From NCBI RefSeq assembly GCF_000165505.1, contig NC_014632.1, positions 1,736,001-1,800,000 on the forward strand: 64,000 nucleotides of DNA, in the 5' to 3' direction. Source of the DNA: Ilyobacter polytropus DSM 2926. Lineage in GTDB: Bacteria; Fusobacteriota; Fusobacteriia; Fusobacteriales; Fusobacteriaceae. A program made the translations under genes and the position numbers. The notes beneath the pieces were generated by a model, which saw nothing but the letters and a program-made list of their open reading frames with translations, did not search any database and was not told where the DNA came from. Positions 28,314 through 47,712 of the stretch are shown here, one piece after another (position 1 is the first letter of the stretch; the number at the start of each line of letters is the position of its first letter).

Positions 28314-28407
28314 AAGAGAGTAAGAATATTAAATTCTTACTCTCTCTATTTCAATACCCCAAAGGCTCTAGAAACCTTTGCAGTCGTGGATTCCTTGGTG
28401 GAAGTGA
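28314..28407 (+). repeat. ssrA 3'-flank repeat, copy R1 (putative attachment site)
   Basis: These 94 bases repeat, with few changes and in the same orientation, the 47286-47380 segment that contains the terminator of ssrA and the last 12 bases of the tmRNA (TGGTGGAAGTGA on the plus strand). Identity ends exactly within the tmRNA 3' end. This is the geometry of an att site produced when an element integrates into the ssrA tail. Confidence 0.75.
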
Positions 28408-28616
28408 TTCATCACTATCCTAGCCCACGACTAGAAACATATCTTATCCCTTGCACTTCATAGCTTAAGTAAAGTTTCTAAGTTAATCCAAAAAATAGAA
28501 AAATATAAAGATGACTATTATACTTAGACCTTGGTTATAATGTAAATTTTTAAAGAATGAAATATGAGAGCTTGCAAAGAGAAGTGTTAGAAGAAAATAG
28601 GGAAATAAAAATTATC

Positions 28617-29140: not shown

Positions 29141-29152
29141 AAGGAGGAAATT

Positions 29153-30076: not shown

Positions 30077-30098
30077 ATTGTAAAAAAGGAGTGAAATT

Positions 30099-30506: not shown

Positions 30507-30528
30507 ATACAATTAGGTATAATTTTTA

Positions 30529-30562: not shown

Positions 30563-30790
30563 ATATACCTTTTAATTTATTTTAATATAAATTAAAGTAA
30601 ACAAGCTTAGACACTTTTAGATTAGATTTAAAGTTTTTCAAGTATACTACTTATATCTATAAATAACCACTATTATGTTTCTCTTCATTTTGTAATTCAA
30701 AAGTTAATTTTTATATGTAGTTTTTCCCCTTATTTTACTATTTTGTAGTATTTGGTGGAGGTAGCTATTCCTCACCTAAGTCACTATGTA

Positions 30791-30818
30791 AAAAGAAGAG
30801 GCTCAAGGCCTCTTCTTT
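30791..30818 (+). terminator. Hairpin preceding att-like core R2
   Basis: AAGAAGAGGC and GCCTCTTCTT form a 10-bp stem around TCAAGG-type loop bases. It occupies the same position relative to the core as the terminator hairpin in R1 and R3. No plus-strand gene ends here. Confidence 0.6.
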
Positions 30819-30844
30819 ACTTATGTTAAAGACTAAATGTTTTT

Positions 30845-30870
30845 AGTCGTGGATTTGTTGGTGGAAGTGA
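30845..30870 (+). repeat. ssrA 3'-end core repeat, copy R2
   Basis: AGTCGTGGATTTGTTGGTGG then AAGTGA matches the tmRNA 3' end and the adjoining bases of R1 and R3 at all but two positions. It is followed by a local palindrome GTTGGT...ACCAAC. It may be an older attachment site. Confidence 0.6.
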
Positions 30871-31009
30871 AGTACGACCAACCTATATCACTACCATAAA
30901 TATATTATTTATGTAAGATTTAGCTAATCTTATAACAACTTTCCTCCATTATACACATAGTCTTTAAATAGCATAACTTTATATTGAAAAGTTGATACAA
31001 TGATAATTA

Positions 31010-31357
31010 CTATTCTTCTAATTCATTATTTTTAATTTCTATTAAACCCTCCTTTAAACCTTCCAAATCATTAGTTATAATATCCCATTCAATATCTTGG
31101 GATACTTGAAAATATTGATGTATTACAAAGTTTCTTACTCCTATAATCTCTCTCCAAGGTATTTTTGGATATTTATTTTGAATATCATCAGGAATCCTAT
31201 TTAAGGCTTCACCGATTATTTCTAAGTTTCTCTCTACTGCTTGCCTTACTAATCTATTATCCTCAAAGTCTTCATAAGTCATATTTTTAGTATCTTCCTG
31301 AATATAATAAATAGATTGTAAAGCGTCCTCTACTCTTAATTTCCACTTACGAGACAT
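31010..31357 (-). CDS. hepT: HepT-like HEPN ribonuclease toxin
   Basis: 115 residues, a DUF86/HEPN helical protein. The catalytic Rx4-6H motif is visible as RNFVIHQYF. HEPN toxins cut RNA or are held inactive by their partner. It overlaps by 11 bases the end of the nucleotidyltransferase gene, the usual order and coupling of mntA-hepT toxin-antitoxin pairs in which the antitoxin adds AMP to a tyrosine next to the HEPN motif (here in HQYF, as in known members). Confidence 0.87.
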   Translation of the reverse strand: MSRKWKLRVEDALQSIYYIQEDTKNMTYEDFEDNRLVRQAVERNLEIIGEALNRIPDDIQNKYPKIPWREIIGVRNFVIHQYFQVSQDIEWDIITNDLEGLKEGLIEIKNNELEE

Positions 31358-31640
31358 ATCTAACGCTCCTCAATATTTCATCTTTTATCTCTTTACGGAT
31401 ATCTTTTTCTCTACATAAATCAACTTCTTTGTTAAATAAATTTTCAAGGTAAAATTTCAATCCAAAATAGGATTTTGATATTCTAGGAACTTCGCCAAAA
31501 TTAACCAGTATATCTATATCACTACTTTCAGAAAAGTTTCCATTCGCATAAGAACCAAAAACACCTATTTTTTTTACTCCGAACGCTTTTATTTCATTTT
31601 CATGATCTTTTATAATTTGAATTATTTCATTCATTTCCAT
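31347..31640 (-). CDS. mntA: MntA-like minimal nucleotidyltransferase antitoxin
   Basis: 97 residues. GVFGSYANGNFSESSDIDILVNF contains the GSxnDxD signature of minimal nucleotidyltransferases. It transfers AMP to the HepT toxin and so neutralises it. Ribosome-binding site GGGGGT. The pair sits at one edge of the mobile block, where toxin-antitoxin modules often stabilise the element. Confidence 0.87.
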   Translation of the reverse strand: MEMNEIIQIIKDHENEIKAFGVKKIGVFGSYANGNFSESSDIDILVNFGEVPRISKSYFGLKFYLENLFNKEVDLCREKDIRKEIKDEILRSVRYVS

Positions 31641-31689: not shown

Positions 31690-31956
31690 GGGCTGACTTA
31701 TAATCTCTTTAGGATTAAATTCTTCTAAGTGTTCTCGTAAACTTTTTCCTCCCACTGTTATGCCATCTTCCTATATTACTTTTGTTTCATATATCGTAAG
31801 GGTATTTCCTTCAATTGCATTAGAATTATATGTAAACCTAACTTTCAAATCTTCTCTTAACATTTTTGCTAAGTCCTCATTGAAAGGCCTATATTTGTCT
31901 AATTCTTTTTTTAGATTTTCTATTTTTTCAAAATCTATTTTCATTCTTTCTCCCAT
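31690..31956 (-). pseudogene. Fic family protein, N-terminal remnant
   Basis: The frame from ATG 31956 reads MGERMKIDFEKIENLKKELD, then FTYNSNAIEGNTLTIYETKVI, the typical N terminus of class II Fic proteins with the inhibitory SNAIEGN motif. A frameshift or stop follows and GITVGGKSLREHLEEFNPKE continues in another frame. The HPFxDGNGR catalytic core is absent. It is unrelated to the intact Fic at 19192 beyond family level. Confidence 0.75.
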
Positions 31957-32060
31957 GCTTATTTTAATTTATTCGTTTTCCGTAGAATAACAATCTTTAT
32001 TTCTTTCAAAATAAAGTATATTTTAATTATATCTTATCTAATTTAAATACACAAATTTCT

Positions 32061-33710
32061 TTAGCCCTTTCCGTAATTACTTACCTCCCTACTATATTCA
32101 TATCCCTTTTCTCTCAAAAATCTATGATAACAAGCCTGGCTATTTTTTACATACAAATCTTCTCTTTTCTTCTTGATTTTGTCTCCTTCATCCAAACCTT
32201 CAAAAACAAAAGAAACCATGTTGAGTTTTACCTCAACATGGTCTTCATATACTATTACCTCTTTGACAAAGTCCTTGATAAGCTTTCTACATTCTGGCAA
32301 ATTCCTTGTCTTAACATATTCCCTTAAATGATTAAGCTTCTCTCTAACTGTCTTTACGTCTATTTCTGGGGCTGTTACTTCTTTGGAATATTTAATTTTT
32401 TCTATCTCCAATCTTCCTTTTTCTTTTTTAAGCTCATCCAACTTTGTTTTCAATTCTTCAGAAGAGAAACCATCCATGACAGCCTTTATAATATTTCCAA
32501 TCTGGCCATCTATGGTAGTTACTTCCTTCTTTATATAGCTCAGTTTCTCTCTGTAAACATTATTCTCTTGATCCACATACTTATTAACATTCTCTACAAT
32601 GCTAGAGGCTACTTCGTCGTTCACTAAGAAATTCTCAAGTTCTGTTAGGACATAATCCTCTATATACTCTTTGCGAATTTCTGGCGTTTTGCAATCGCTA
32701 TTTACTCCTTTTTTATGCCTTGCTCCGCATCTGTAGCTCACGTATAAAGGTTTCCCCTTAGGTTTTCTTCTGTTACCATACATTGCATGCCCACATTTAC
32801 ATTTTATAATACCTGACAGCAAATAAATTTCCTTAGCTTTTTGTCTTCCTCCTCTTCCGTTCCTTTTAGATTCCATCAAGGATTGGGCCCTATTATAATC
32901 ATCTTCTGTAACGATAGCTGGTACCCCTCCTTTAATCCTGATGATGTCCTTATCATCCTTGGTCTTACTTCCATTTCTTCTTCCAAAGGCATCTTTAGAA
33001 GCTGATTTATTAAATACAAATGTACCACAATATTTTTCATTTTTGATTATGCTCCTTATGCTGTTTGTCCCAAACAACACACCCTTTTTAGTCCTATATC
33101 CCCTATCATTAAGCTCATTGACTATACTCATTACAGTATGCCCCTGTAGATATTTTTCAAAGATCAACTTTACTGCTTCAGCTTCGTTTGGGTTAATGAT
33201 ATATTTTCTAGTTTCCTTATCTACATCATAACCCAAAGGTGGCGTCCCTCCTGTATGCTGGCACTTATATGCTGTTTCTTTCATACCTTTCATTGCTTCT
33301 CTAGCGAGGTTTTTGGAATAATAGTCTGCCATGCCCTCTAGTACACTTTCAAGGATCACTGACTCTGGGCTGTCATCAAGTTGCTCTGTCACACTAACGA
33401 CTTTAACACCATTTTTAAGAAGTCTCTTCTTATAGTATACCGAGTCGTATTTATCTCTTGAAAAACGATCAAGCTTATGAACAATTACCATGTCAAAATT
33501 CTCTTTTTCACTGTCTTTGACCATTCTCTGAAAATCAGGTCTCTTGTCCGAAGTTGCACTCCTTGCTCTATCTGTATAAATTTCTATTATCTCAATGTTA
33601 TTTCTTTTTGCATACTCTTGTATTGCTCGAATTTGGGCATCTATACTTTCATCTCTCTGATTTTCTGAGCTAAATCTTGCATAGATAACCGCTTTTGTTT
33701 TCTGGTTCAT
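32061..33710 (-). CDS. Large serine recombinase (site-specific integrase)
   Basis: 549 residues. The catalytic domain begins KAVIYARFSSENQRDESIDA with nucleophile Ser near residue 14, then SRDKYDSVYYKKRLLKNGV. The middle Recombinase domain (GTPPLGYDV; YCGTFVFNKSA) and a zinc-ribbon (CKCGHAM...CGARHKKGVNSDC) follow, then a long coiled-coil motif. This is the layout of phage and ICE integrases. It is the only integrase-like gene in the island and may have inserted this block or part of it. AT-rich phage-like genes follow it. Confidence 0.92.
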   Translation of the reverse strand: MNQKTKAVIYARFSSENQRDESIDAQIRAIQEYAKRNNIEIIEIYTDRARSATSDKRPDFQRMVKDSEKENFDMVIVHKLDRFSRDKYDSVYYKKRLLKNGVKVVSVTEQLDDSPESVILESVLEGMADYYSKNLAREAMKGMKETAYKCQHTGGTPPLGYDVDKETRKYIINPNEAEAVKLIFEKYLQGHTVMSIVNELNDRGYRTKKGVLFGTNSIRSIIKNEKYCGTFVFNKSASKDAFGRRNGSKTKDDKDIIRIKGGVPAIVTEDDYNRAQSLMESKRNGRGGRQKAKEIYLLSGIIKCKCGHAMYGNRRKPKGKPLYVSYRCGARHKKGVNSDCKTPEIRKEYIEDYVLTELENFLVNDEVASSIVENVNKYVDQENNVYREKLSYIKKEVTTIDGQIGNIIKAVMDGFSSEELKTKLDELKKEKGRLEIEKIKYSKEVTAPEIDVKTVREKLNHLREYVKTRNLPECRKLIKDFVKEVIVYEDHVEVKLNMVSFVFEGLDEGDKIKKKREDLYVKNSQACYHRFLREKGYEYSREVSNYGKG

Positions 33711-33773
33711 TTTTATGCTACTTTCTTTTTTCAGGGGATAAGCTTCTAGCCCATCCCCTATTTATGTTATTTG

Positions 33774-33917
33774 TTAGCCTTTAGATATCATTTGAGCAAC
33801 TACTCTTGAAAGACTATCGTGAATACATCCACCACTACTACTCCCTGTGGCTTCCTGCATTCCCTCTCTCTCATAGTTCCTTTTATATAGTCTTTCTCTT
33901 CCTATTGATAATATCAT
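33774..33917 (-). CDS. Small hypothetical protein, 47 residues
   Basis: From ATG 33917 behind GGGGGGATAGG it reads MILSIGRERLYKRNYEREGM, then QEATGSSSGGCIHDSLSRVV. Good ribosome-binding site and a position just upstream of the integrase support it, but I do not recognise it and short length makes it uncertain. Confidence 0.45.
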   Translation of the reverse strand: MILSIGRERLYKRNYEREGMQEATGSSSGGCIHDSLSRVVAQMISKG

Positions 33918-34055
33918 TACCTATCCCCCCATTAAAATTTTTGATATCATAATTATGATATATACTTATTTTTTATTTATAAACGCTTCCAGTTGGTCGT
34001 TGTCCCATAATCCTAAGTATTTTCGATATATTTTGGTCGTCCTAACGGCTGACTC

Positions 34056-34325
34056 TCATAGTCCTTGATTTGAAACCTGGCTTAATTTTTTTACTTCCAT
34101 ATAGCCAATCCTGTTCATAAGTATTTCTGCCTCAACAAATGTTCCACTTAGTTTTTCGACCAAAACTCTATGTTTTAAAGGAATAGAATAATAAGTCCCA
34201 TCTATATATGCATAAAAAGTTTCATCATCAAAATCCTCTATAAGGTTTTGAAGTTTCCCTTTTACAGCAAAAATCCAATTACTACCTTGCATTCTAACAT
34301 TCATCATTTTTTTAATATTTATCAT
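34056..34325 (-). CDS. Hypothetical protein, 89 residues
   Basis: Starts MINIKKMMNVRMQGSNWIFA behind AGGAGG. It is a compact alpha/beta-looking soluble protein with no motif I recognise. It lies between the helicase and the integrase in the mobile block, all on the minus strand. Confidence 0.6.
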   Translation of the reverse strand: MINIKKMMNVRMQGSNWIFAVKGKLQNLIEDFDDETFYAYIDGTYYSIPLKHRVLVEKLSGTFVEAEILMNRIGYMEVKKLSQVSNQGL

Positions 34326-34383
34326 TTAATATCCTCCTATTATTTTTTTATTTAGGGAGCCATAAATTGACCCCCGCTGTAAT

Positions 34384-36714
34384 CTAGTCAAAAATGGGTG
34401 TTTCATCTACTTCTAGATATCGATCTTGTATTTGAGTATTATTTTCTTTTATTTGATCTTCTTTTTGCACTATCTCTACTATATCGTGGATTTCTGAGCT
34501 TTTATCATTACTCACATCTATCTTCGTCCCTGTAACTTTCTCAACGTCACTTATAAACTTTTCCGCCTCAAAATAAGGAGATGCTATTGGATATTGTTTA
34601 CCTTCCTTTTCTAGAGTTACCTCATATAAATAAAACTGTGTTGAAAATTTCACTTCATAAGCTTTTTCGAAAATATTTCCAATCATTCTTTCGGGTCTTG
34701 AGGCTTCATCAATTTTATCTATATATAATTCAGTAAGCTTTAACTCAATTTTTTGATCTAAAAGCTTTTGAAACTCTTCAACATACTCTGGCTCATCTAA
34801 TTTAAATTCTCCTAGTATGCTTTTAGCTGTACGTAAACCTTTATTTACCTTTGAATGAGTAGTCTTTCCATCCTTTTTACTGGATTTATCGCTAAGAATA
34901 ACTAACTCTTTCCCCCTCGTTGTTAAGGCATTTCTTGTATATTTTTTTCCTAGGAGTTTACTATACTCGTCTAAGGATTTATCTTCGTCTTCTTTAGTAA
35001 TCACCTTATTTTCTTCACTTGCATACAGATTATAGAGAATTTCAAAAGCCTTATAGCCTTTATTTCTCTTTTCTATACTAGGGTCATCTTTTAAACCTGA
35101 ATAGACGTATGCCTGAATATAGTTTTTTATTTTCCTCCTCTTTGGCTTACTAGTAAAGGTTTTCAGCATAAGTTCATATGCTAATTTATAATTGAATCCC
35201 AAAGCTATATACATTCCAAAAGTCTTAAAAACATCGAAAGGCACCCTCAGATTTTTCCAGAACTTATTGTTATCATAGTACTTTTCTGGATCTTTATTTA
35301 AATAGCATTTTAGGGCTTGCTTTTGATATTCCATTCCTTGTAACTTTTTTAAGTGTTCTGAAAGAAGTTCTATCTCTTTATCAGTAGACTCTTCCCCACC
35401 TTTAGAAAACATAAAATTCCCTTCAACTTTCATTGAATATTCTTCAATTATCGGAGACAGCTCATAAGCTTCCAGCTCTTTCTTCAATAGCTCTGGATTA
35501 CTTTGAAGACTTTTATAGTACTTTTCATACTCTGAATTTCTTATAGCCTCTACATCTACATAAAAACTATTCTGCGTATCCATTTTTACAAAGTATTCTT
35601 CATCAAGAGAATCCTCTATCAAACTGAACTTATACATCAGAAACTTCTTTGTTTCCCCTCCTACACTTCTGATACAATTTTTCATGTCATTCATTATATT
35701 ATTAGCCGTCATCATTCTACGTTTAATTGCCTCTTCCACTTGTGTTGATGTATATGGTGGCTTAGCTGTTTCGTCTTTTTTTAATGGTTTAGCTCCATTT
35801 ATAATTACATAATGCTCTTTTAATGATTTTCGAGGTCTTGCTGATAATTGCTTTATGGCATTAGGGTCACCATTTTCAACATCTATGATGACATCTACTT
35901 CTTTTAGGTTTACACCTGCGTCTAAAAGTGAGGTACATAAAATAACTTTATATTTATCAGATAATTCATTTTCATTTACTATCTTCAACATGACATCTGA
36001 TTCATTTTTATTATCAGCAGTTAAAATAGTTGATGAAACCTCATTCTCCTCAAGACTCTCTTCCATTTTTCTAAGAGTGCTTTTATTGTTCACCTTAACA
36101 AGACACCTCTTTCCCTCGTCAATCTTTTTCTTGATAAGATCTAAGGCGACAGCTCTATTAGAATTTTTCCCCGACATTAGTATCTTAGATGAACCTATGA
36201 TATTTTTAGGTTCTTCTTGCTTAAATCTAACCACTTCTCCGTAAAGATCATGTTGTAAATGATTGACTGTTGCGGATAGATATACAACTTCTTTTGCTTT
36301 CTTTGTAAGCTTTTTTACTCCCAATATGGCGTCACTTCTAAAGTTAGCCTGTGCTTGCAAATTATGAGCCTCGTCTAGCACAACCAATAAATCAGATAGA
36401 TCGCCTTTTAAGAGGCTGACTGCCTTATCATATGTGGCTACAATTACATTTCCCTTTTCCCAAATGTTCTCTGTTACTTCACTTCCATGAATTCCTACTA
36501 TCTTATATTCTTTAGAAATTTGCATAACATTGGAGACATTTGGTACTAGAATGATAGTTTTACCTTTTCTTTCTTTACCTATCTTAATAAAAGTATAGGT
36601 TTTCCCACTCCCTGTAGGAGCTTCTACGATGACCTTCCTATGATTGCTTATACTCTTCTTAATCACATTTGTTGATTCATCCTCTGAAAGATATTTTTTA
36701 AACTTATGAACCAT
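34384..36714 (-). CDS. DEAD/DEAH-type superfamily 2 helicase-like ATPase with a long novel C-terminus
   Basis: 776 residues from the ATG at 36714, chosen for GGAGG; an in-frame earlier start lacks one. Motifs: I VEAPTGSGKTYTFIKIG near residue 30; II VVLDEAHNL; III SATV; helicase C-terminal domain with LCTSLLDAGVNL and QLSARPRKS. The last 450 residues show no domain I recognise. The length and setting suggest a replication or defence helicase of a mobile element. No primase or nuclease motif is evident. Confidence 0.8.
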   Translation of the reverse strand: MVHKFKKYLSEDESTNVIKKSISNHRKVIVEAPTGSGKTYTFIKIGKERKGKTIILVPNVSNVMQISKEYKIVGIHGSEVTENIWEKGNVIVATYDKAVSLLKGDLSDLLVVLDEAHNLQAQANFRSDAILGVKKLTKKAKEVVYLSATVNHLQHDLYGEVVRFKQEEPKNIIGSSKILMSGKNSNRAVALDLIKKKIDEGKRCLVKVNNKSTLRKMEESLEENEVSSTILTADNKNESDVMLKIVNENELSDKYKVILCTSLLDAGVNLKEVDVIIDVENGDPNAIKQLSARPRKSLKEHYVIINGAKPLKKDETAKPPYTSTQVEEAIKRRMMTANNIMNDMKNCIRSVGGETKKFLMYKFSLIEDSLDEEYFVKMDTQNSFYVDVEAIRNSEYEKYYKSLQSNPELLKKELEAYELSPIIEEYSMKVEGNFMFSKGGEESTDKEIELLSEHLKKLQGMEYQKQALKCYLNKDPEKYYDNNKFWKNLRVPFDVFKTFGMYIALGFNYKLAYELMLKTFTSKPKRRKIKNYIQAYVYSGLKDDPSIEKRNKGYKAFEILYNLYASEENKVITKEDEDKSLDEYSKLLGKKYTRNALTTRGKELVILSDKSSKKDGKTTHSKVNKGLRTAKSILGEFKLDEPEYVEEFQKLLDQKIELKLTELYIDKIDEASRPERMIGNIFEKAYEVKFSTQFYLYEVTLEKEGKQYPIASPYFEAEKFISDVEKVTGTKIDVSNDKSSEIHDIVEIVQKEDQIKENNTQIQDRYLEVDETPIFD

Positions 36715-36880
36715 GACTATACCTCCACAAAATTTATATTTAGTTTTCAATGTCCAAAGAAACCATCATCTGATTTCCCTGCTATTATTTTGTGGATCCA
36801 CTTCTGTTAACAATTAAATAGTATCATCTCTTATAAAAAGAATAACGTCCGAAACTTTTTGACAAAAAAAAATCTTGCTT

Positions 36881-37897
36881 TTAACAAGATTTTATGTTTT
36901 CTAATTTTTTTCTAGATTTTTCCTTTTCTCTAAGTTCTTCTTCCCTACCTAAAGGCCAATTATCAATTGTATAATCTATTAATAGGTTGGTAACTTCTGT
37001 TAAATCAATTAATTCACTTAAATACTTATTAATTTTTTCTTCTTTTGATGTCAACTTTCTATAATCCCCAAAATACCGATTTACAACAGCATTAGCTCTA
37101 GTTTCATTAAAGTTTTTCTTCGTTTTAAAAAACTCTTTAGTTTTCTCTTCCAGCTCCAACAGACTTTTCTCATTCACTTTTTTTCCACTTATAATTTTTT
37201 TTAATGCAGCATTGTCAACTACTTCCTCCAAGAGAAACCGTAAATCCTCTTCCCCTGCTTTGGATATTTTCCTATGACTGTAATTATTTTGATATTTTTT
37301 AGATATCTCTTTATATATTTCCTCTATCGGAGTGCTTTTATTTGTTACATCTTCAAAATCACATTTTATGTATTCACTTAAAATGAAATCTTCTTTCTTG
37401 GAGTATAAACCTTCCACTCCTGTTAAACCATTTATTTTATTAAGTCTTTTTTCTATTTTGTAATAATACTTCTTATATTCTTTATCTTCTTCAGTAATTT
37501 TAATTTCTTGTGCTAAATTTTCTTTGATGAAATTAATGCTTTTATTCTCACCATATCCTTTTTTTATGAAATCAGCAAAAGTAATACTTCCTTCGTCTTT
37601 TTCTGAAGGTGCTAAGCTCTGATAATAATGATCAATTACATAGTCAGCTATTTTATTTAGACCTATTGTTAGTTCATCACTTTCGCCATCTGTTATAATC
37701 TTTGATAATTTTCTTATATGTTGCTCATTAAATTCAAGGTCTTCTGTTGCGTATACAAGTTCTTTCACATCTGAAAACCTCGAAGTATCCATTTTTATTC
37801 CGTCTATTGAGTCAATTTCCTCCTCTTTCTCACAACAATCTAAATCTTCAAATATTTCTCTCAAAAGTTTTTCTTTTGAGAATTCAGTATTGCTCAA
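36881..37897 (-). CDS. Hypothetical protein, 338 residues
   Basis: Probably starts with TTG at 37897, because AGGAGG lies eight bases upstream. The protein is rich in charged residues and predicted helical, with no membrane segment or catalytic motif I can recognise. It is immediately upstream of the helicase gene (166 bases between) and probably shares its transcript. The region before it contains two large hairpins that could regulate this transcript. Confidence 0.65.
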   Translation of the reverse strand: MSNTEFSKEKLLREIFEDLDCCEKEEEIDSIDGIKMDTSRFSDVKELVYATEDLEFNEQHIRKLSKIITDGESDELTIGLNKIADYVIDHYYQSLAPSEKDEGSITFADFIKKGYGENKSINFIKENLAQEIKITEEDKEYKKYYYKIEKRLNKINGLTGVEGLYSKKEDFILSEYIKCDFEDVTNKSTPIEEIYKEISKKYQNNYSHRKISKAGEEDLRFLLEEVVDNAALKKIISGKKVNEKSLLELEEKTKEFFKTKKNFNETRANAVVNRYFGDYRKLTSKEEKINKYLSELIDLTEVTNLLIDYTIDNWPLGREEELREKEKSRKKLENIKSC

Positions 37898-37964
37898 ATC
37901 ATTTCCTCCTATTTACTATATTGACTTATAATCCATATTATATCATCTCTAGGTTATACTAGAC

Positions 37965-38030
37965 CCAAAACTTAGAATTTATTTTCTTTAGAATCTACAA
38001 TTCTTACTTTCGGGTATCATCTTATACTGA
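37965..38030 (-). repeat. Partial dispersed hairpin element, copy 3
   Basis: TTTTCTTTAGAATCTACAAT, then ACTTTCGGGTATCATC, matches the middle part of the elements at 42590 and 16220. The AGCACATAGG hairpin is missing here. Confidence 0.5.
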
Positions 38031-38052
38031 TATTTTTATGATTTTTATAGGT

Positions 38053-38105
38053 AGTTTTGAAAAGGTATTATACCTTTAGGTATATGTTTTTACCTTTTCA
38101 AAACT
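38053..38105. promoter_or_regulatory. Nested palindrome upstream of the 338-residue protein
   Basis: The arms AGTTTTGAAAAGGTA and TACCTTTTCAAAACT are a perfect 15-bp inverted repeat; the 23-base interior itself contains a smaller hairpin (TATACC...GGTATA). The gene that starts at 37897 lies downstream, so this could be an operator, an origin-like structure or an RNA leader. Confidence 0.55.
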
Positions 38106-38122
38106 AGATAGAAAATATCATG

Positions 38123-38178
38123 CCCGAAACTTAGGATATTTTGTTTTAGGATTATATATCCCAAGTTTCGGGTTTTTT
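38123..38178 (+). terminator. Long hairpin with CCCGAAACTT stem
   Basis: CCCGAAACTTAGGATAT and ATATCCCAAGTTTCGGG pair at 16 of 17 positions and are followed on the plus strand by TTTTTT. As no gene is transcribed towards it on the plus strand, the T-run may be chance and the structure may act on the minus transcript. The stem shares CCCGAAACTT with the dispersed element. Confidence 0.55.
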
Positions 38179-38545
38179 ATCTACTGTATTTCAACGAAAA
38201 TAGCTCCATCACTTCATCTATACAGCCTGAATTATTTACCTGATCCATCAATTCTAGTGTATCATCTGAAACGAAATACTCTGTTTCATCTTTTAGGTAG
38301 AACACTATGTCCACATCTTCAATCTCTCTTAGTAGATCTGTAGTAGTTACTTTTTCCACTACAAACTTTTCAATTGATTCCACTCTTTTTTCTATAGAAT
38401 TCCAAAGATCGTCTACATTACGATTTTCCCATATCATATTTTCCAAATCTTCAATATCCCAATTCTTAGAAATATACTTTTCTATTTCCAATTTTCCAAT
38501 TTTATCTAGTATCTCTTTTGGATCTAGTGACACAAAAATATTCAT
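38177..38545 (-). CDS. Hypothetical acidic protein, 122 residues
   Basis: Start at 38545 behind AAAAAGGAG (an earlier in-frame start is without ribosome-binding site). It reads MNIFVSLDPKEILDKIGKLE, then DIEDLENMIWENRNVDDLW, rich in Asp and Glu, predicted helical. No family recognised. Part of the minus-strand block of phage-like small genes. Confidence 0.6.
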   Translation of the reverse strand: MNIFVSLDPKEILDKIGKLEIEKYISKNWDIEDLENMIWENRNVDDLWNSIEKRVESIEKFVVEKVTTTDLLREIEDVDIVFYLKDETEYFVSDDTLELMDQVNNSGCIDEVMELFSLKYSR

Positions 38546-38707
38546 TCTTAGTCTCCTTTTTAGAGTAGCCACCCTTGACCTCGATATAGGTCTATCTGGC
38601 TATGCTATTTTTTAACGTTACCTTTCTATCATATTTAAGATGACAGCTTATCACGACTTGCAGATTTGGCTCTCTGATATCTATTTCAGCCTTCCTATTA
38701 GATAGAT

Positions 38708-39001
38708 TCAATATTCCTCTGCCAACATAGCAGTAGTATGATCTCCATCATCTATTACGAATACCATTGCTGTTACGGGTCTTGTGAATACAAACCTGTA
38801 CTTCTTTTTGTATTCAGGTGACTCACTTCTATGTTCAAGTCTCTGGATGAACTCATTCTCTGCTTCCAACTGAAATACCTGCAAATAGTCCATATTCCCT
38901 TTTGTATTCAATTCGTCAATCAACTGGAATATTGTCAATTGTAGTTCTAGTGGGATCTCTTGTTGAAATCCTCGTGTCATGTACCTATTATTCTCAAACA
39001 T
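38708..39001 (-). CDS. Hypothetical protein, 97 residues
   Basis: Begins MFENNRYMTRGFQQEIPLEL after AGGAGGGTAA. The C-terminal part FVFTRPVTAMVFVIDDGDHTTAMLAEEY resembles a compact sheet domain. The conserved-looking ending recalls DUF960-like phage proteins, but I would not rely on this. It lies in the mobile block. Confidence 0.62.
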   Translation of the reverse strand: MFENNRYMTRGFQQEIPLELQLTIFQLIDELNTKGNMDYLQVFQLEAENEFIQRLEHRSESPEYKKKYRFVFTRPVTAMVFVIDDGDHTTAMLAEEY

Positions 39002-39114
39002 TTACCCTCCTATACTATATCTTGATATATTTTATTTTTATATATGTACATATTGTGTTTTTGAAAATGTTTTCTCAAACAACCCCGTTGTAGTCGTTAG
39101 TTCTACATTATATT

Positions 39115-39249
39115 TTCATCTTCATGATTAGAACTCTTCTGTATCCTTGAAATTAGATCTATATCTCCAATATTTGCAATTATCTCTTTCATTTCATCAA
39201 CCAATATTCTCTCCTCTATCAACTTCGACGTCATCATGTCTATGGCAAA
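39115..39249 (-). CDS. Possible short ORF, about 44 residues
   Basis: The minus strand reads MMTSKLIEERILVDEMKEII, then ANIGDIDLISRIQKSS. It has no clear ribosome-binding site, so it is listed with low confidence. Confidence 0.25.
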
Positions 39250-39255
39250 AGAAAA

Positions 39256-39282
39256 AAGAGATAGTCTGTTGACTATCCCCTA
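39256..39282 (-). terminator. Terminator after the 22-residue peptide gene
   Basis: On the minus strand GGATAGTC and GACTATCT arms form a stem around AACA, followed by CTTTTTTCTTTT. Confidence 0.75.
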
Positions 39283-39351
39283 TCAATCATCTATAGATTT
39301 CCCTATTACTGTTAGTGCAGTACCAACAGCTACAAGTACAGTTCCAAACAT
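39283..39351 (-). CDS. 22-residue hydrophobic peptide
   Basis: From ATG 39351, preceded by the very strong AAGGAGGTGATAC, it reads MFGTVLVAVGTALTVIGKSI followed by two aspartates. It is one hydrophobic segment with a charged tail. A rho-independent terminator follows directly. Such a tightly framed mini-gene resembles type I toxin peptides or small membrane peptides of phages. It has no recognised homologue that I can name. Confidence 0.6.
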   Translation of the reverse strand: MFGTVLVAVGTALTVIGKSIDD

Positions 39352-39484
39352 TGTATCACCTCCTTATAGTGAATATTCCCTTCTATCTATTCAATAGATC
39401 CCAAAATATCTCTTGTGGTGTTCTTGGTCTTTGTGTCCATAATATCATCTTTCATTCCTCCTTTTTCTTTGGAGATCGACTTTC

Positions 39485-39814
39485 TCAAGATAGCCAATCA
39501 TCGTATTTCTTTCTCCTATCTTCTTCCTTTTTCAACATGTTCAAATACTCTGCTATTAGCTCATCTACCTCCGCTATCTCTATTTCAATACCCATCAATT
39601 CATAGTTTTCCACTGTTGTTAGGTCTTCCTCTTCCTCCTGACACTCTAGCAAGTAGAGCTTTGCGAATTTTTCTGAATAGTAGATTCCTTTACATCTATC
39701 TACACTCACTACCACCCCGTAGCCCATCTTCAGCTTCTCCTTTACCTCGTCAATAGTTGCTGCTTCATCAAACTCTATTTCCTCCTCGAATCCCAATTCC
39801 TCAAATTCTACCAT
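39485..39814 (-). CDS. Hypothetical strongly acidic protein, 109 residues
   Basis: Begins MVEFEELGFEEEIEFDEAAT after GGGAGG. I count about 33 Asp/Glu against 13 Lys/Arg, an estimated net charge near -20. Such acidity is seen in DNA-mimic and anti-restriction proteins of phages, but the sequence resembles no such family that I recognise, and acidic assembly proteins are another option. Confidence 0.6.
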   Translation of the reverse strand: MVEFEELGFEEEIEFDEAATIDEVKEKLKMGYGVVVSVDRCKGIYYSEKFAKLYLLECQEEEEDLTTVENYELMGIEIEIAEVDELIAEYLNMLKKEEDRRKKYDDWLS

Positions 39815-39815
39815 T

Positions 39816-40043
39816 CTATCTATACCTCCCTATTATCTCCTCAGTGTATTTTTCTAGTTGCTCAACTCCATCTTTCCAGTAGAGTTCCCTTAGCTCAGAT
39901 ACCTCTACTTCTTCATCTGCTACTATACCTTTATAGTTCATATCCCAAGCTTTATTCATTGCTTGATCATGTGTATAGTATTGCTTATCCATCAGTACTT
40001 TTGCTTCCCATACAAGCCCCTTATGCCATTCCCTTAGGTTCAT
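39816..40043 (-). CDS. Hypothetical protein, 75 residues
   Basis: MNLREWHKGLVWEAKVLMDK with good ribosome-binding site AAGGAGG. The start codon lies at the stop of the upstream gene (overlap of four bases), showing translational coupling, and the next gene starts two bases after its stop. Family unknown. Confidence 0.6.
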   Translation of the reverse strand: MNLREWHKGLVWEAKVLMDKQYYTHDQAMNKAWDMNYKGIVADEEVEVSELRELYWKDGVEQLEKYTEEIIGRYR

Positions 40044-40312
40044 TTATCCTCCTTATAGATCTTTTCTATACTTCCATCTTCAAGCATGAGAAAAGATACA
40101 AGTACCTCCTCATCCTCCCCAAGAATATGAACTACAACCTTGTCTTCTCCTATTGGATTTAGATATGTCAGATATTCTTCTTGGTCTATCAAGAATTGGT
40201 GTAAGACTTCCTCTATCTCCTCAGGTTGAAGATATATTCCCTCTATGGCTTCAAATATTACTTCTTCTCCTGATATTTTCTCTGCAAGCTCTTTCGATTT
40301 CTTCACGTCCAT
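40040..40312 (-). CDS. Hypothetical protein, 90 residues
   Basis: Start at 40312 behind AAGGAGGG. It reads MDVKKSKELAEKISGEEVIF, and is acidic. Overlap with the following 75-residue gene suggests co-translation. Upstream is a terminator separating it from the DUF1643 gene. No known family. Confidence 0.6.
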   Translation of the reverse strand: MDVKKSKELAEKISGEEVIFEAIEGIYLQPEEIEEVLHQFLIDQEEYLTYLNPIGEDKVVVHILGEDEEVLVSFLMLEDGSIEKIYKEDK

Positions 40313-40328
40313 TTTTTCCCTCCTTGAA

Positions 40329-40360
40329 ATAGAAAAAGGCAACCCCGTAGGATTGCCTTT
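40329..40360 (-). terminator. Terminator of the DUF1643 gene
   Basis: AAAGGCAATCC and GGGTTGCCTTT form a stem with a short loop; on the minus strand it ends in TTTTTC. Confidence 0.75.
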
Positions 40361-40886
40361 AGTTATTGTTATTCTCTTTGAAATACGGTACTAGATTCCA
40401 TTTCAGCCTTACTGAAGGTACTAGAGGATGATACAATATCTCTCCTCCAATATCTGTCAAATAGTAGACTTTATCCTTGTACGCCTCTAGGCTAGATAGC
40501 AAATCGTCTATTCTTGCTTTTACAGTCTTATTACTCTTACCAATAGCACCATATGCAAGGATTATTTGCGTTGCTTTATCTACACTTTGCATTATCGCTT
40601 TCAAGTTTTCTATCTTGGCTTCTTCTGTTTCAGATCTAGTAGATAGCCTACCTATCATAGAATATAGATTCAATATGTCTACGGAGCCATAGTCTAGTTT
40701 AGAAAGATTATTTACAACCAGTTGAGTAGTCATATCTATGACTATACCATCTGCATCACTTGGATTGATCATCAGGACACATGCCCTGGGTTTTGCCTTA
40801 TCCCATTCCTTCCTCAATAGATATCGGTGTTTCCTATCTTCTGAAAAATGTACTTCCGTTCTCAATACTGTTTTTTCTACTGCCAT
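40359..40886 (-). CDS. DUF1643 family protein
   Basis: 175 residues. HFSEDRKHRYLLRKEWDKAK, then ACVLMINPSDADGIVIDMT and NLYSMIGRLSTR are the family's recognisable blocks. DUF1643 proteins are common in phages and mobile elements, with unknown function; a nucleotide- or nucleic-acid-related role is often guessed. Ribosome-binding site AAGGAGG. First gene of the minus-strand block, divergent from the regulators at 41105. Confidence 0.82.
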   Translation of the reverse strand: MAVEKTVLRTEVHFSEDRKHRYLLRKEWDKAKPRACVLMINPSDADGIVIDMTTQLVVNNLSKLDYGSVDILNLYSMIGRLSTRSETEEAKIENLKAIMQSVDKATQIILAYGAIGKSNKTVKARIDDLLSSLEAYKDKVYYLTDIGGEILYHPLVPSVRLKWNLVPYFKENNNN

Positions 40887-41063
40887 TATTACCTCCTTGA
40901 TTTTTGAATTTTATATCAAGGAAATAATATATTTTCGAAAATGGAATATTTACAGATTTCTAACAACGTTAACAGGGTATTCATACAATCTTAATTGACT
41001 TTTCATAGCGTATCCGTGGGTATTAGGTTTCAAGCCTTAATACACTCGAATTTGCTCAAGTCT

Positions 41064-41095
41064 TAATAACATTACATTAATAATGTTATTAAGGA
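41064..41095. promoter_or_regulatory. Inverted repeat before the 62-residue regulator
   Basis: CTTAATAACATT and AATGTTATTAAG are perfect 12-bp arms separated by eight bases. The right arm ends just before the GGAGG site of the 62-residue gene, so it is either an operator or an RNA hairpin masking translation. Confidence 0.65.
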
Positions 41096-41104
41096 GGTAT
41101 TCAG

Positions 41105-41293
41105 ATGAATACAAAATTAGTTAGCTTCAAGAGAGACGCACATCCATACAAATTAACCCTAATGGTTGATAGATCTATTTACAAATTACTGAAGGATTAC
41201 TCAGGGGATCATAGACTTACTATGTCGTGTATAGTTGAAAACCTTATCTATACCAACTTAGGAGGTGATTCTCATGGAACTACAAACTTATAG
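41105..41293 (+). CDS. Small ribbon-helix-helix-like protein, 62 residues
   Basis: MNTKLVSFKRDAHPYKLTLM through VDRSIYKLLKDYSGDHRLTM is a short strand followed by two helices, compatible with an Arc/MetJ (ribbon-helix-helix) DNA-binding fold. It overlaps the start of the next gene and lies downstream of a 12-bp inverted repeat, so it may be an autoregulator of the block. Confidence 0.55.
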   Translation: MNTKLVSFKRDAHPYKLTLMVDRSIYKLLKDYSGDHRLTMSCIVENLIYTNLGGDSHGTTNL

Positions 41294-42071
41294 TATGAAT
41301 AGTGTTACTGAAAAAAGGGCTATGGATATAATTTCTAAAGTTGGCTCTCTTGCTATGATAGGTGAAATAGGTGCTACAAAGGAAATGGTTGCTGATTTCT
41401 TTGATGTTAGTGAAAGGACTATTGAAAGAGTACTAGAAGGAAATAGAAGAGATTTTCTTATGTATGGTGACTACAAAAAATCCAAGAGTGATATTAAGAT
41501 GCAAGTGACCGACAAATCTGTCGGTAGCTTATTACCGAAAAGAATTAGCAAGATTAACCTCTTTAACCGAAAACATATCATGCTATTCGCTTGTCACTTG
41601 GGTCAAACTTCTGATGTTGCTAAGAAGGTTATCCAATATTTGATTGAAGTTGAAAGTAGTGCTAGTAAGGAAGATAAAGTTACTGCCATATTTGAGCAGC
41701 TTATCAAGTGGAATGAATTGCCTGAAAGTTCCAGATCGACTGTTTATTTGCAAGCTATCAATGCTATCAGAGAATCTAAGGGTCTTATTGCATTTGCTGA
41801 GAGTATTGAGGATACTACTAGTATCTCTATCAATGGTTTTGCCAAAGCTACATATAGTACTTTAGAATTAGGTCAAAAGAAACTATTTAAGGAACTTAGA
41901 TTTTTGCATATTCTTAACAGGAAAAATATCCCTTATCAATATTATATTAGCATGGGGTATTTCAAGGTTATTACTCACAATATTAGGGGGAAAGTAGTCC
42001 ATCAACCTATGCTTACTGGAAAAGGTGAGGTATGGTTACTGAACAAGATGAAAGATGTATTAAGGAAATAG
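41274..42071 (+). CDS. Hypothetical phage-like regulator, 265 residues
   Basis: Starts at 41274 behind AGGAGGTG. The N-terminal part (MVADFFDVSERTIERVLEGN) looks like a helix-turn-helix, and NLFNRKHIMLFACHLGQTSD followed by VAKKVIQYLIEVE resembles a conserved segment in phage and plasmid regulatory proteins. It may act on the divergent minus-strand block. Function not known. Confidence 0.6.
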   Translation: MELQTYSMNSVTEKRAMDIISKVGSLAMIGEIGATKEMVADFFDVSERTIERVLEGNRRDFLMYGDYKKSKSDIKMQVTDKSVGSLLPKRISKINLFNRKHIMLFACHLGQTSDVAKKVIQYLIEVESSASKEDKVTAIFEQLIKWNELPESSRSTVYLQAINAIRESKGLIAFAESIEDTTSISINGFAKATYSTLELGQKKLFKELRFLHILNRKNIPYQYYISMGYFKVITHNIRGKVVHQPMLTGKGEVWLLNKMKDVLRK

Positions 42072-42072
42072 A

Positions 42073-42150
42073 AAAAAGCACATAGGATTGATTTCCTATG
42101 TGCTACTACTAGTTCCTTCCCGAAACTTACCATCTTTTTTTTATTCTTTC
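42073..42150 (-). repeat. Dispersed two-hairpin element, copy 4 (partial)
   Basis: AGCACATAGGATTG and CCTATGTGCT hairpin, then TTCCCGAAACTTACCATC. The second stem partner TTTCGGG is missing because the sequence jumps to the end of the small membrane protein gene. It is the terminator of that gene on the minus strand and perhaps of the regulator at 41274 on the plus strand. Confidence 0.7.
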
Positions 42151-42158
42151 TTCCATGA

Positions 42159-42410
42159 TTATTTTGATTTATTAATCTTCCATTTAAAAAGACACCCAAT
42201 ACTGATTATAACAATGTAGAACAACGATGCTCTCATACCCACAGTCGAGCTTATTTTTAATAGGTCGAGAATTTCAAAATTATCTATCTGAAACATGTAA
42301 ATAGGAGATACGGCTACAAAACTCAATGGGAAACTCCAAAAAAATATTCTTAGAGAGTGTTTTGATATTTCTTTTAAACTTCTTGCTTCTATAAAACTAT
42401 TTTTGTTCAT
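42159..42410 (-). CDS. Small membrane protein, 83 residues, paralogue 2
   Basis: 83 residues, begins MNKNSFIEARSLKEISKHSL with two membrane segments, closely similar to the protein at 16377. Conserved positions span the full length and the synonymous differences indicate selection on the protein. It lies 3' of hsdR with a two-hairpin element on each side. Family unknown. Confidence 0.6.
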   Translation of the reverse strand: MNKNSFIEARSLKEISKHSLRIFFWSFPLSFVAVSPIYMFQIDNFEILDLLKISSTVGMRASLFYIVIISIGCLFKWKINKSK

Positions 42411-42531: not shown

Positions 42532-42640
42532 AAAAGCACATAGGATTGGTTTCCTATGTGCTACTACTAGTTCGTACCCGAAACTTACCATCTTTTTTCT
42601 TTAGAATACAACTTTCGGGTTCCATCTATCATCCCGATAT
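42532..42640 (-). repeat. Dispersed two-hairpin element, copy 5 (terminator of hsdR)
   Basis: The best-preserved copy: AAAGCACATAGGATT and AATCCTATGTGCT-type arms, then ACCCGAAACTTACCATC, and AACTTTCGGGTTCCATC. On the minus strand the order is CCCGAAAGTT hairpin, then AGCACATAGGA hairpin, then TTTTG, directly after the hsdR stop codon. Confidence 0.75.
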
Positions 42641-44914
42641 GAATTCGTTGTACAGCTTTCTTGCTATCTCCTCTATTATGAAAGACTTGAAGCTACTTTC
42701 ACTCAGGATTTTATTGAAGATGTCCTCATTTGCTGATTTTCTTTTCAAAATACCACGTATGAAGTCCTTCTTAGCAAAACTATCTTTGAATTCCTCATAG
42801 GAATTTACCATTGCCTTATCTTTCAGGCCCTCTATATTCTTGTAGTCCTCTATCACCTGGTCAAATAGAAGTCTGTCATTTTCGGTTAGGTTCATTTCAA
42901 AAATTTTGTTTATCTTGTTTATGATATCATCAAGGTGCTCCAAATCTTCTTCTTTCTTTCTAGATGCCCCCCCTGCTGTGAATCCTGGCAGAGGTTCTCC
43001 GATTTGATCACCCATTAGTGATATGTTTGCTCCCTGCTTTCCTTCTCCTGCTATCTGTTTCAGCTTGTAGTAGTCAAGACTCAGGATCTTATCAAGCTCT
43101 AGCTTTGAACTTATTCGATCTACAGGTAGTTTTTTTATCAATCCTATGAGGTAGATTTGAAGTTTGTACAAGTTTACATTTTTCAGTGGATAGATCTGTA
43201 TGAGGAAGTTGTATGCCCTTGTGTACTTCACAGCAAGAGTTTTGTATTCTTCTTTCTCATCCTCTGACAATTTTAAGTACCTCTCTACACCTTTGTCCAC
43301 AAGATTGTTCATGATCTCTTGATCTCTGTTGCTCTTCTTCTCCTTGAGGTACAGCGTTGTCACTTTTTCTACCTCTTCAGGAAGGTACACATGTATTGCA
43401 TTGAGCTGATAGTACATGTCAAATACTATATTTGGGTCTGTTACTTCCTCTATACTTGTTGCCTGAAAATACGGTGCAAAGGATTCAGTTATCTTCTCTG
43501 TATCATTGAAGAAATCTAGAATGAAAGTATTGTCCTTTTCAGGGTATGTCCTGTTGAGCCTCGACAGCGTTTGGACAGCTTTTACACCGTCTAGATTTTT
43601 ATCTACATACATTGCACACAACTTAGGTTGATCGAAACCTGTCTGATACTTTTCAGCTACAATTAGGAACTTTGTGTTGTCATCCTTGTCAAATACCTCT
43701 GTCAGACCAGTTTCTTTTATTCCGTTCATAGTTGCTTCACTGTATTCTTCATCATCAATTTTCACTGTTCCTGAGAAAGCTACAAGGGATTTTATCGGGT
43801 ATTTCTTTTCCTTGATGTATTCGTCTATCGCCTGTTTGTATCTTACCGCATGAAGACGACTTCCTGTTACTACCATACCCTTTGATTTGCCTTTCAGCCA
43901 CATGGAACGATTGTTCATGAAATCTTCAACCATTACCTCTATCTTTTGCCTAATGTTGTACTCATTGAGAGATACAAATCTATTGACCGCTTTGTTTGCC
44001 TTTCCCTTATCAAATTCAGGGTTGTCCTGTATCTTCTTACCAACTTTGTAGTAGACATCATAGGTAGAATAGTTCCTCAGCACATCAAGTATGAACCCCT
44101 CTTCTATAGCCTGTCTCATAGAGTACAGATGAAATTCATGAGGTTTCCCGTCTGATCCCATTCTTCCAAATATTTGAAGTGTCTTATTTTTAGGAGTTGC
44201 AGTGAATGCAAAGAAGCTGATATTCTCAGTGTTGGTTCTTTTCTCAAGGATTTCATTTATCTTATCGTCATCATCCTCAACATCAGATTCTATTACCTTT
44301 GATTCTTTCAAAGTTTTCCCATTCAGAGTTTCTTTCAGAGAAGACATGTTCTCTCCTGCTGTACTGGAATGAGCTTCATCTATTATTACTGCATATCTAC
44401 CTTTTTCCAGTTCATCTATCTTTTCTAGAGCAAAGGGGAACTTTTGGATGGTTGTTATTATTATCTTTGCCCTGTCTTTGATAGCCTGTGCCAGATCACC
44501 AGATCTTTTGGTATCGTCTATCTTTTCTACAACGCCTTTCTTGTGCTCTAGCTGATAGATTGCATCCTGAAGCTGTCTGTCTAGTACCTTTCTGTCAGTT
44601 ATTACTATTACGCTGTCAAAGATGTTCTCATTGGATTGACTGTGAAGCCCTGCCAGCCTGTGTGCTAGCCATGAAATAGAGTTTGTCTTTCCACTTCCTG
44701 CACTGTGTTGTATGAGGTACTTCTGACCTGTACCATTCTCAAGAACATCTTTCTCTATCTTTCTTACCACATCCAGTTGATGGTACCTTGGAAAAATAGC
44801 CCTTTGTTTTTTCTTTATCTTACCTTTGTTATCTTTTTTTTCTTCAGTTTGTATGTAGTAGAATCTTTTCAGTATATCTAGAAGGCTGTCTTTCCAACAG
44901 ATGACTCCCTTCAA
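42629..44914 (-). pseudogene. hsdR: Type I restriction enzyme R subunit, N-terminally truncated
   Basis: 761 residues. Motor motifs are complete: AGSGKTNSISWLAHRLAG, VIIDEAHSS, FAFTATP, and YQTGFDQPKL, followed by the HsdR C-terminal helical region. HsdR proteins normally begin with about 250 residues carrying a PD-(D/E)xK nuclease; these are missing and the frame is closed by a stop just upstream. No hsdM or hsdS gene is present in the window. It cannot cut DNA as a type I enzyme and is probably a relic. Confidence 0.85.
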
Positions 44915-47285: not shown

Positions 47286-47380
47286 AAGAGTAAGAATTTT
47301 AAAATTCTTACCCTTTCTCTATTTCAACACCCCAAAGGCTCTAGAAACCTTTGCAGTCGTGGATTCCTTGGTGGAAGTGA
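47286..47380 (+). repeat. ssrA 3'-flank repeat, copy R3
   Basis: This segment contains the terminator of ssrA (AGAGTAAGAATTTT...AAAATTCTTACC), the sequence CCCCAAAGGCTCTAGAAACC, and the last 12 bases of the tmRNA gene. It is repeated directly at 28314 and, in its core, at 30845. Confidence 0.8.
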
Positions 47381-47712
47381 CGGGAATCGAACCCGTGTCC
47401 AAGATCACCAGTATCATAAGCTTCTACAAGCTTAGTCTGCGATTTGATCTCACATTATCGGCCCACACAGACATGGTCAGATAATGCCAGCCTCTTAAAT
47501 TTCCCCTATACATCGAGACACAGTATCGGGTAAGCCGTATATTAGTTATACTCCGTAAGGATTCCTAAACGGCCTCGGAAACCTGGAGCAAGCTGCGTTA
47601 GGCAGCTAAAGCGTAATTGTTGTTTTCATCTAAACGATGTTTGGCCTCTCACAGCGACCAACCTGGCCTGCTACCTACAACCTGATAACCCTGTCGAAAC
47701 CTTGGCACTCCC
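47369..47712 (-). ncRNA. ssrA: tmRNA (transfer-messenger RNA)
   Basis: On the minus strand it begins GGGAGTGCCAAGGTTTCGAC and ends GGGTTCGATTCCCGTC, then ACTTCCACCA, with the 5' GGGAGTG pairing to the 3' CACTTCC as a tRNA-like acceptor stem. The tag reading frame ends ENNNYALAA (GAAAACAACAATTACGCTTT...GCCTAA), the expected YALAA proteolysis signal; the resume codon upstream is not certain. It rescues ribosomes stalled on broken mRNA together with SmpB, encoded 2.3 kb away. The 3' end is a common integration site, which matches the repeats described. Confidence 0.96.

Follow-up and report, generated by a model that had tools for sequence, protein, structure and literature searches.

A block of genes, most of them on the minus strand, could be confirmed in the Ilyobacter polytropus DSM 2926 genome, yet it forms one portion of a larger element. 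In the 64,000-nucleotide stretch analyzed here (the window; C1:1736001-1800000 of a genome of 3,132,314 bases in three contigs), the sequence delimits an island between two direct repeats of the 3' end of ssrA, the essential transfer-messenger RNA (tmRNA) gene; the island carries one large serine recombinase together with a set of small genes of the type found in the staphylococcal cassette chromosome (SCC). We consider it likely that the block is the core of an integrative, excising, replicating, and non-conjugative island at the ssrA 3' end. A preliminary description of positions 34056-42071 had read the region as a mobile-element block packed mostly on one strand and divergent from two regulators. 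This reading was right: the block genes occupy 34056-40886 on the minus strand, and two plus-strand genes (41105-42071) diverge from them. The limits given then were too narrow, as the recombinase (32061-33710) and the attachment sites fall outside them.

Island limits and attachment sites at ssrA

It was a repeat of the tmRNA 3' end that pointed to the island limits, where direct repeats stand 16.5 kb apart (30845-30870 and 47355-47380). The target gene and the sites are the following.

47369..47712, minus strand: tmRNA gene ssrA, intact, integration target (ARAGORN; Rfam RF00023 full length, 1-374, E 5.8e-65)
47355..47380, plus strand: attachment site at the tmRNA 3' end, 26-bp motif AGTCGTGGATTNNNTGGTGGAAGTGA
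30845..30895, plus strand: site C, the island's distal attachment site, with the 26-bp motif at 30845-30870 and then an element-type half-site
28382..28432, plus strand: site B, second outer attachment site, a 51-bp imperfect dyad and the limit of a further 2.5-kb tandem segment

With up to two mismatches allowed, the 26-bp motif has three copies genome-wide, all of them exact (at 47355, 30845, and 28382). A sister island of 18.6 kb in Propionigenium maris also lies at ssrA. There the motif has two copies 18,632 bp apart, one at the tmRNA end and the other 0.5 kb beyond the recombinase; the corresponding distance from the recombinase to site C in the window is ~1.2 kb. At the same tolerance, the motif was present in 10 of 61 genomes of the family and a backward control pattern in none.

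The shared sequence stops at GTGA, the center of the 51-bp imperfect dyad, and beyond this point the distal sites share a sequence of roughly ACC.....CACGACTA, a mirror of the left half. Such a dyad is as expected of a serine-integrase site. Across eight distal sites, 83 of 192 positions paired, compared to a permutation mean of 57.7, and 34 of 2000 permutations scored as high; the tmRNA sites showed no dyad (3 and 4 of 24 positions). The underlying scan comprised 22 rows, namely 7 tmRNA ends, the 8 distal sites that entered the dyad test, and 7 omitted rows (two in locus L046, one each in L048 and L049, two in L050, and L053 at 17542) with right halves that resemble tmRNA fragments or with a weak match (4-6 mismatches).

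Between sites B and C, a 2.5-kb segment (28382-30870) holds MarR-like, transporter, and GNAT genes (identified by eye) between two attachment sites, as a cis-mobilizable tandem segment would.

A conserved gene set with its own recombinase

From the recombinase to the antirepressor, 13 of 14 genes recur in P. maris in the same order and at 54-85% identity, which makes the block more than a chance assembly. The genes are listed here with their identities to the P. maris copies.

32061..33710, minus strand: large serine recombinase (integrase), 549 amino acids (aa); Pfam Resolvase, Recombinase, and Zn_ribbon_recom; 77%
33774..33917, minus strand: 47-aa basic protein, isoelectric point 9.1, before the integrase and in the same place in P. 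maris; 60%
34056..34325, minus strand: 89-aa protein (P. maris copy 119 aa); 57%
34384..36714, minus strand: 776-aa superfamily 2 (SF2) helicase, proposed replication protein; Pfam DEAD, ResIII, and Helicase_C; 55%
36881..37897, minus strand: 338-aa protein in a variable cargo slot, no recognized relatives
38177..38572, minus strand: acidic protein, 131 aa as listed and ~122 from an internal ATG, in 3 of 98 genomes of the phylum; ~69-70%
38708..39001, minus strand: DUF960 protein, as in SCC elements; Pfam PF06124 2.4e-27, 95.7 bits, cut-off 25; 80%
39103..39237, minus strand: 44-aa acidic mini-protein; 57%
39485..39814, minus strand: 109-aa very acidic protein, net charge -20; 75%
39816..40043, minus strand: 75-aa protein; 73%
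40040..40312, minus strand: 90-aa acidic protein (100 aa in the list, which starts it at an upstream TTG), predicted uracil-DNA glycosylase inhibitor of Ugi fold; 54%
40359..40886, minus strand: DUF1643 protein, as in SCC elements; Pfam PF07799 6e-31, 107.7 bits, cut-off 22.5; 85%
41105..41293, plus strand: 62-aa small DNA-binding-like regulator, ribbon-helix-helix type by eye; weak Pfam DUF6364 8.8e-4, under the cut-off; 63%
41274..42071, plus strand: antirepressor-like protein with KilAC domain; Pfam ANT 3.4e-14, PHROG anti-repressor 1.1e-21; 74%

The one gene of the 14 that is absent from P. maris encodes the 338-aa protein. Genes for 133 and 271 aa occupy its slot there, and BLASTP between the 338-aa and 271-aa proteins gave only short weak pieces (best E 0.013). 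Because the 338-aa gene is not common to the sister island, we regard it as cargo; judged by sequence, the set has been conserved as a unit apart from one slot whose content varies. It had been proposed that the 776- and 338-residue genes be sought together in other genomes, and here the two part company, as the sister island keeps the helicase but lacks the 338-residue gene. The idea that the 338-aa protein is a conserved helicase partner was rejected (0 of 60 relatives; none in phages, plasmids, or IMG/VR). The protein is indeed unrecognized, as first noted.

Ten block proteins were scanned against Pfam, PHROGs, and NCBIfam. The DUF1643 protein and the helicase motor domain (Pfam DEAD 3e-16, Helicase_C 6e-9) were recovered as previously read. 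The remark that nothing else could be recognized did not survive, since the DUF960 protein and the KilAC-type antirepressor have clear Pfam matches and one acidic protein, of 90 aa, has a Ugi-like predicted fold.

The recombinase is related to the cassette chromosome recombinases, at a distance. Its best NCBIfam model was SCCmet_CcrB, at 189 bits against a cut-off of 900, followed by CcrC (105 bits, cut-off 900) and CcrA (99 bits, cut-off 700). A profile of both island recombinases found six matches in the 61 family genomes (E up to 1e-60), and all six lie at ssrA: three end 12-15 bp from the tmRNA gene, one is 3.6 kb off, and two belong to the islands described here. In a tree of 20 recombinases, which has long branches among the outgroups and leaves out a CcrC sequence, the group clusters with proteins of Aneurinibacillus, a Moorella phage, Fusobacterium animalis, and Subdoligranulum (support 97/96), apart from CcrA and CcrB. 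The use of ssrA by a serine recombinase is thereby extended to the Fusobacteriaceae, with predicted attB and attP sites.

Serine recombination into ssrA has already been proposed, and our island adds another case, in which the point of exchange differs. The closest integration precedent is that of the Dehalococcoides ssrA islands, which, in the accessible part of the source (PMC3146451), carry DsiB, a CcrB-like serine recombinase, integrate at the ssrA 3' end with direct repeats, and stand in tandem. The likeness stops at integration. Neither DsiA (the second recombinase) nor RecF, ParB, or Mom was seen here in Pfam scans of 19 open reading frames (ORFs); the shared sequence here stops close to the acceptor stem, at 12 nt from the 3' end of the tmRNA, and not in the T-loop; and our island has the SCC-type small genes. 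It is possible to read the island as an ordinary member of this kind, in which the recombinase alone matters and the rest is accumulated cargo. The same target, the CcrB-like recombinase, and the tandem repeats downstream of ssrA, matched here by sites B and C, all fit such a view. We find it quite unlikely, as gene order is preserved for 13 of 14 genes in a second genus whereas the real cargo differs, which marks the set as a unit, and as the Dehalococcoides module (second small recombinase, RecF, ParB, Mom, and RNA-polymerase-like genes) was not seen in the scanned ORFs.

Known-protein matches to the helicase are limited to its first 300-400 residues and come from phages (6 records) and plasmids (55 records, 52 of them from Clostridioides difficile). 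These C. difficile plasmid and phage relatives cover the N-terminal 38-52% of the protein, with 29-33% identity among the matches listed; one is encoded by a 7.9-kb plasmid with ten annotated genes. The pCD630-like plasmid family is named after a helicase-containing module, by a title cited in PMC6807378. Such plasmids and the related phages are free circular replicons, and unlike the island they have no such recombinase, DUF960, or DUF1643 annotated in three records. The plasmid kinship suggests that the island helicase may have a role in replication. Among 98 Fusobacteriota genomes, P. maris is the only other one with this helicase. In IMG/VR, the single protein had no match, and the helicase alignment gave motor matches of 36-40 residues only (E 1e-5 to 3e-5).

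In line with the preliminary description, no capsid, terminase, or relaxase family occurs among the block genes in the Pfam and PHROG scans. Relaxase and mating-pair genes, the hallmark of integrative conjugative or mobilizable elements, were likewise absent from the Pfam scans of the 19 ORFs of the block and its edges. The block could still be a satellite element, as the preliminary description suggested, but nothing for phage packaging was seen. In the fuller form of this alternative, the antirepressor, helicase, and recombinase would be the leftovers of a decayed prophage, or the island would be phage-parasitic and packaged by a helper phage. The antirepressor does match phage regulator families, the nearest helicases in the phage set are those of C. 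difficile phages, and a Moorella phage recombinase is 44% identical. However, the Pfam and PHROG scans of the ten block proteins gave no packaging, capsid, or tail family, although packaging or phage-interference genes like those of satellites of the phage-inducible chromosomal island (PICI) or PLE type could lie among the unrecognized genes, and no such family was seen in reading the P. maris ORFs. DUF960 matches no phage family, the small genes match plasmid-borne SCC copies, and gene order is conserved in two genera, which argues against prophage decay. We therefore hold a phage origin of this sort to be unlikely, if worth keeping in mind, and prefer the non-conjugative integrative island.

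A predicted Ugi fold and the likeness to cassette chromosomes

The 90-aa acidic protein gave a structural model of pLDDT (predicted local distance difference test) 73 from two sequences; the other four models reached 48-57. Foldseek ranks 1-5 for this model were all Ugi chains. VIA-align gave Z 9.9 to Ugi 1udi_I over 80 residues at 2.3 A, Z 7.0-9.9 for the Ugi rows, Z 8.6 to Ugi-2, and 5.2-6.7 to SAUGI, with a best unrelated score of 5.5; a family missing from the VIA-align list was not counted against that family. In predicted fold, length, acidity, and the E-x6-[ED]-[ED] acidic motif, the protein resembles Ugi of Bacillus phages PBS1/PBS2 and SAUGI, although it is only ~20% identical to them. 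The motif is a published pattern (PMC10303552, accessible part) and is kept in both proteins, that of the window and its P. maris counterpart. At the level of families, the match to Pfam UDI (Ugi-type) was at chance level (E 0.069) and there was no Pfam match to SAUGI (PF06106). An inhibitor profile run over the 98 phylum genomes found the two islands clearly, while its other 10 places were pieces of longer ORFs (E 6e-4 or worse). A Ung-like gene is present in each host genome, with scores of 95 and 86 bits that fall short of the family cut-off (186). Based on the model, the protein likely has the Ugi fold, and we infer from this that it may inhibit Ung. A Ugi-fold protein is suggested in a bacterial island where sequence searches miss it.

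A glycosylase-like fold for DUF1643 was considered and dropped, as its model was poor (pLDDT 54) and Foldseek returned only scattered alpha/beta proteins. PDB sequence searches with DUF1643, DUF960, and the 90-aa protein yielded nothing useful; DUF960 reached 2r41, an uncharacterized protein, at E 0.53.

Both SCC patterns carry DUF950 (SaUGI), DUF960, and DUF1643, according to accessible parts of PMC7581432 (also PMC10581047 and PMC6222049). In annotated SCCmec copies on plasmids, DUF960 adjoins DUF1643, together with SAUGI, two Ccr recombinases, a DUF927 helicase, and a type I restriction piece. The small-gene kit is a close match to that of SCC/SCCmec, the cassettes with which staphylococci carry methicillin resistance. 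The island shares with them a large serine recombinase, a helicase, a predicted uracil-DNA glycosylase inhibitor fold, DUF960, DUF1643, and a piece of a restriction gene nearby. It differs in several respects. Its recombinase is not CcrA, CcrB, or CcrC by curated models and belongs to a separate clade; it targets ssrA, whereas SCC targets the 3' end of rlmH; its helicase is an SF2 DEAD protein, in contrast to the Cch (DUF927) or Cch2 (D5-like) helicase of SCC, and Pfam finds no DUF927 or D5 in the island. Its inhibitor is closer in fold to phage Ugi than to SAUGI, and it adds a KilAC antirepressor and several further acidic genes. Assignment to SCC was rejected on recombinase, target, and helicase. 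A true SCC family member in Fusobacteria would account for CcrB as best model, for DUF960, DUF1643, the Ugi/SAUGI-fold protein, the helicase, and the HsdR piece. Yet a score of 189 bits against 900, the placement of the recombinase in another clade, the ssrA target, the other helicase family, and the lack of a SAUGI Pfam match make this very improbable. The Enterococcus cassette chromosome (ECC) is also a serine-recombinase island in which DUF960 is common (PMC6222049, accessible part); its rlmH target, ccrAB, and highly variable content set it apart.

By analogy, we propose that the island acts like a staphylococcal cassette chromosome with another helicase and target, combining features of SCC and of the Dehalococcoides islands. 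A wider reading, offered tentatively as one that could go either way, is that a uracil-DNA glycosylase inhibitor, DUF960, and DUF1643 form a portable replication-protection kit that crosses phyla in the company of CcrB-like recombinases and combines with unrelated initiator helicases and with different essential target genes. On this view, the Fusobacteriaceae islands would represent a second cassette type that was assembled independently, lands at ssrA, and is protected by a Ugi-type instead of a SAUGI-type protein. If so, cassette chromosomes would not be a staphylococcal invention, and the islands would replicate after excision through a Ung-sensitive (uracil-containing) intermediate. A distant island with the same small genes and a different helicase also separates the traits of a cassette lifestyle from staphylococcal ones, and it gives DUF960 and DUF1643 a context for testing. 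In the accessible text of PMC7581432, SaUGI is proposed to shield new SCC DNA from the host glycosylase, and SCC replication is said to await demonstration in vivo. Against this background, in which the replication and movement of SCCmec are still open, an island with such a kit in another phylum is of interest.

In literature searches that left most subscription journals outside, DUF1643 was paired with DUF960 in staphylococci only (by titles), and nothing combined at least three of cassette chromosome, Fusobacteri, uracil-DNA glycosylase inhibitor, and ssrA. By titles, no Ilyobacter genomic-island literature was on this subject.

Part of the same kit may also sit in a different element. In genome G036 (L046 13357-14756), relatives of DUF960 and of the 131-aa protein adjoin, near ArdC-like and Rad52-like proteins (by eye) and a tmRNA-end-like repeat.

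Proposed cycle, cargo, and neighboring genes

The following cycle would fit the conserved genes. Two divergent regulators, the small DNA-binding protein and the KilAC antirepressor, would release the leftward operon for expression. The recombinase, possibly guided by the adjacent 47-aa protein (a candidate recombination directionality factor by inference only), would cut the island out as a circle and leave ssrA intact. The SF2 helicase would then open an origin, and host enzymes would copy the circle while the Ugi-like protein blocked host uracil-DNA glycosylase, so that uracil-containing new strands stayed uncut. The other acidic proteins, DUF960, and DUF1643 may assist in this cycle, the defence genes and the 338-aa gene being cargo. 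Transfer would be via a helper, plasmid or phage, because no transfer gene was seen.

Several observations count against parts of this account. At site C of the window itself, the dyad is imperfect, with 9 of 24 positions paired. Site B and remnants in other genomes show the locus to be an array of sites in tandem, and site B could instead be the outer limit (18,973 bp). The Ugi match comes from a single model of pLDDT 73 built on two sequences; sequence searches with the 90-aa protein reach neither Ugi in PDB nor phage Ugi, and E-x6-[ED]-[ED] by itself arises in 1491 of 2000 shuffles. The helicase falls outside both SCC helicase families, its likeness to plasmid helicases is confined to the N-terminal half, and no convincing origin or iterons were found near it. 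Additionally, the 89-aa gene may be broken in the window: it ends at an in-frame TGA, and the frame beyond stays similar to the 119-aa P. maris relative, which points to a nonsense mutation or to recoding.

With regard to the separate terminators proposed earlier, strong stem-loops occur at three places (40360-40335, 39281-39256, and 42104-42077); within 31900-42200, terminator-like sites numbered 7, against 3.7 (SD 2.1) in shuffles. Promoter-like sites in the same interval were at chance (43 versus 42.2 in shuffles). Ribosome-binding sites were judged by eye at a few starts only.

The idea of a defence or anti-defence system in itself was not borne out, since the conserved genes resemble a core for integration, regulation, and replication, and defence genes are changeable cargo around this core. 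A PADLOC scan of nine of the ten block proteins and the HsdR fragment gave, HsdR aside, weak helicase matches only in the block. The cargo genes in the window are the following.

31010..31357, minus strand: HepT-like ribonuclease toxin gene (Pfam HepT-like 3.7e-27)
31347..31640, minus strand: MNT nucleotidyltransferase antitoxin gene (Pfam NTP_transf_2 8.9e-14)
42629..44914, minus strand: HsdR (type I restriction) fragment without its N-terminal part (PADLOC REase_I, positions 237-736 of 1029; Pfam SWI2_SNF2)

Defence cargo differs by island, being the HsdR fragment and HEPN/MNT genes in the window, a Cap4-nuclease/ATPase pair in P. maris, and Cas9 in congener G001. Related remains occupy this locus in the two congeners: DUF1643 (99%), the small regulator (95%), and an antirepressor (54%) in G002, and remnants of antirepressor and recombinase in G001, along with HEPN/MNT-like genes and a Cas9 system. 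Defence genes seem to have a hot spot at the ssrA locus.

The Cas9-type CRISPR system of G001 (L026 4500-10013; ORFs by eye) lies between the tmRNA gene and the antirepressor/recombinase remnants of a related ssrA island. In the P. maris island (L007 399-3076), the gene pair encodes a Cap4-type nuclease domain (Pfam 2.2e-13) and an SMC/AAA_23-like ATPase; the pair is likely to be defence cargo and occupies the end that corresponds to the HsdR fragment in the window.

Several smaller features were also seen. A hairpin-like repeat of 45-50 nt (CCCGAAACTTA...TTTCGGG) occurs in the window at 37964, 38123, 42119, and 42577 and in L007 at 10545, 11058, and 11218. It follows or brackets changeable genes, namely an 83-aa gene in the window (42159-42410) and the 133-aa gene in P. 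maris, at the matching intergenic position next to the 338/271 slot. The repeat may be a marker of gene cassettes or simply act as a shared terminator. The 83-aa gene is also flanked by a 67-bp direct repeat (95.5%; 42074-42140 and 42532-42598) that contains the antirepressor terminator. At the island edge, a 61-aa ORF (31771-31956) reads by eye like the start of a Fic protein, with no Fic Pfam match, and is probably a broken gene. A BCCT-type transporter gene (45108-46787, by eye) lies inside the island limits and has a 71% identical copy on contig 2. Outside the island, a 279-aa protein (6694-7533) consists of tandem repeats (TEKASEMKEGATEM...) with an end that is LysM-like by eye.

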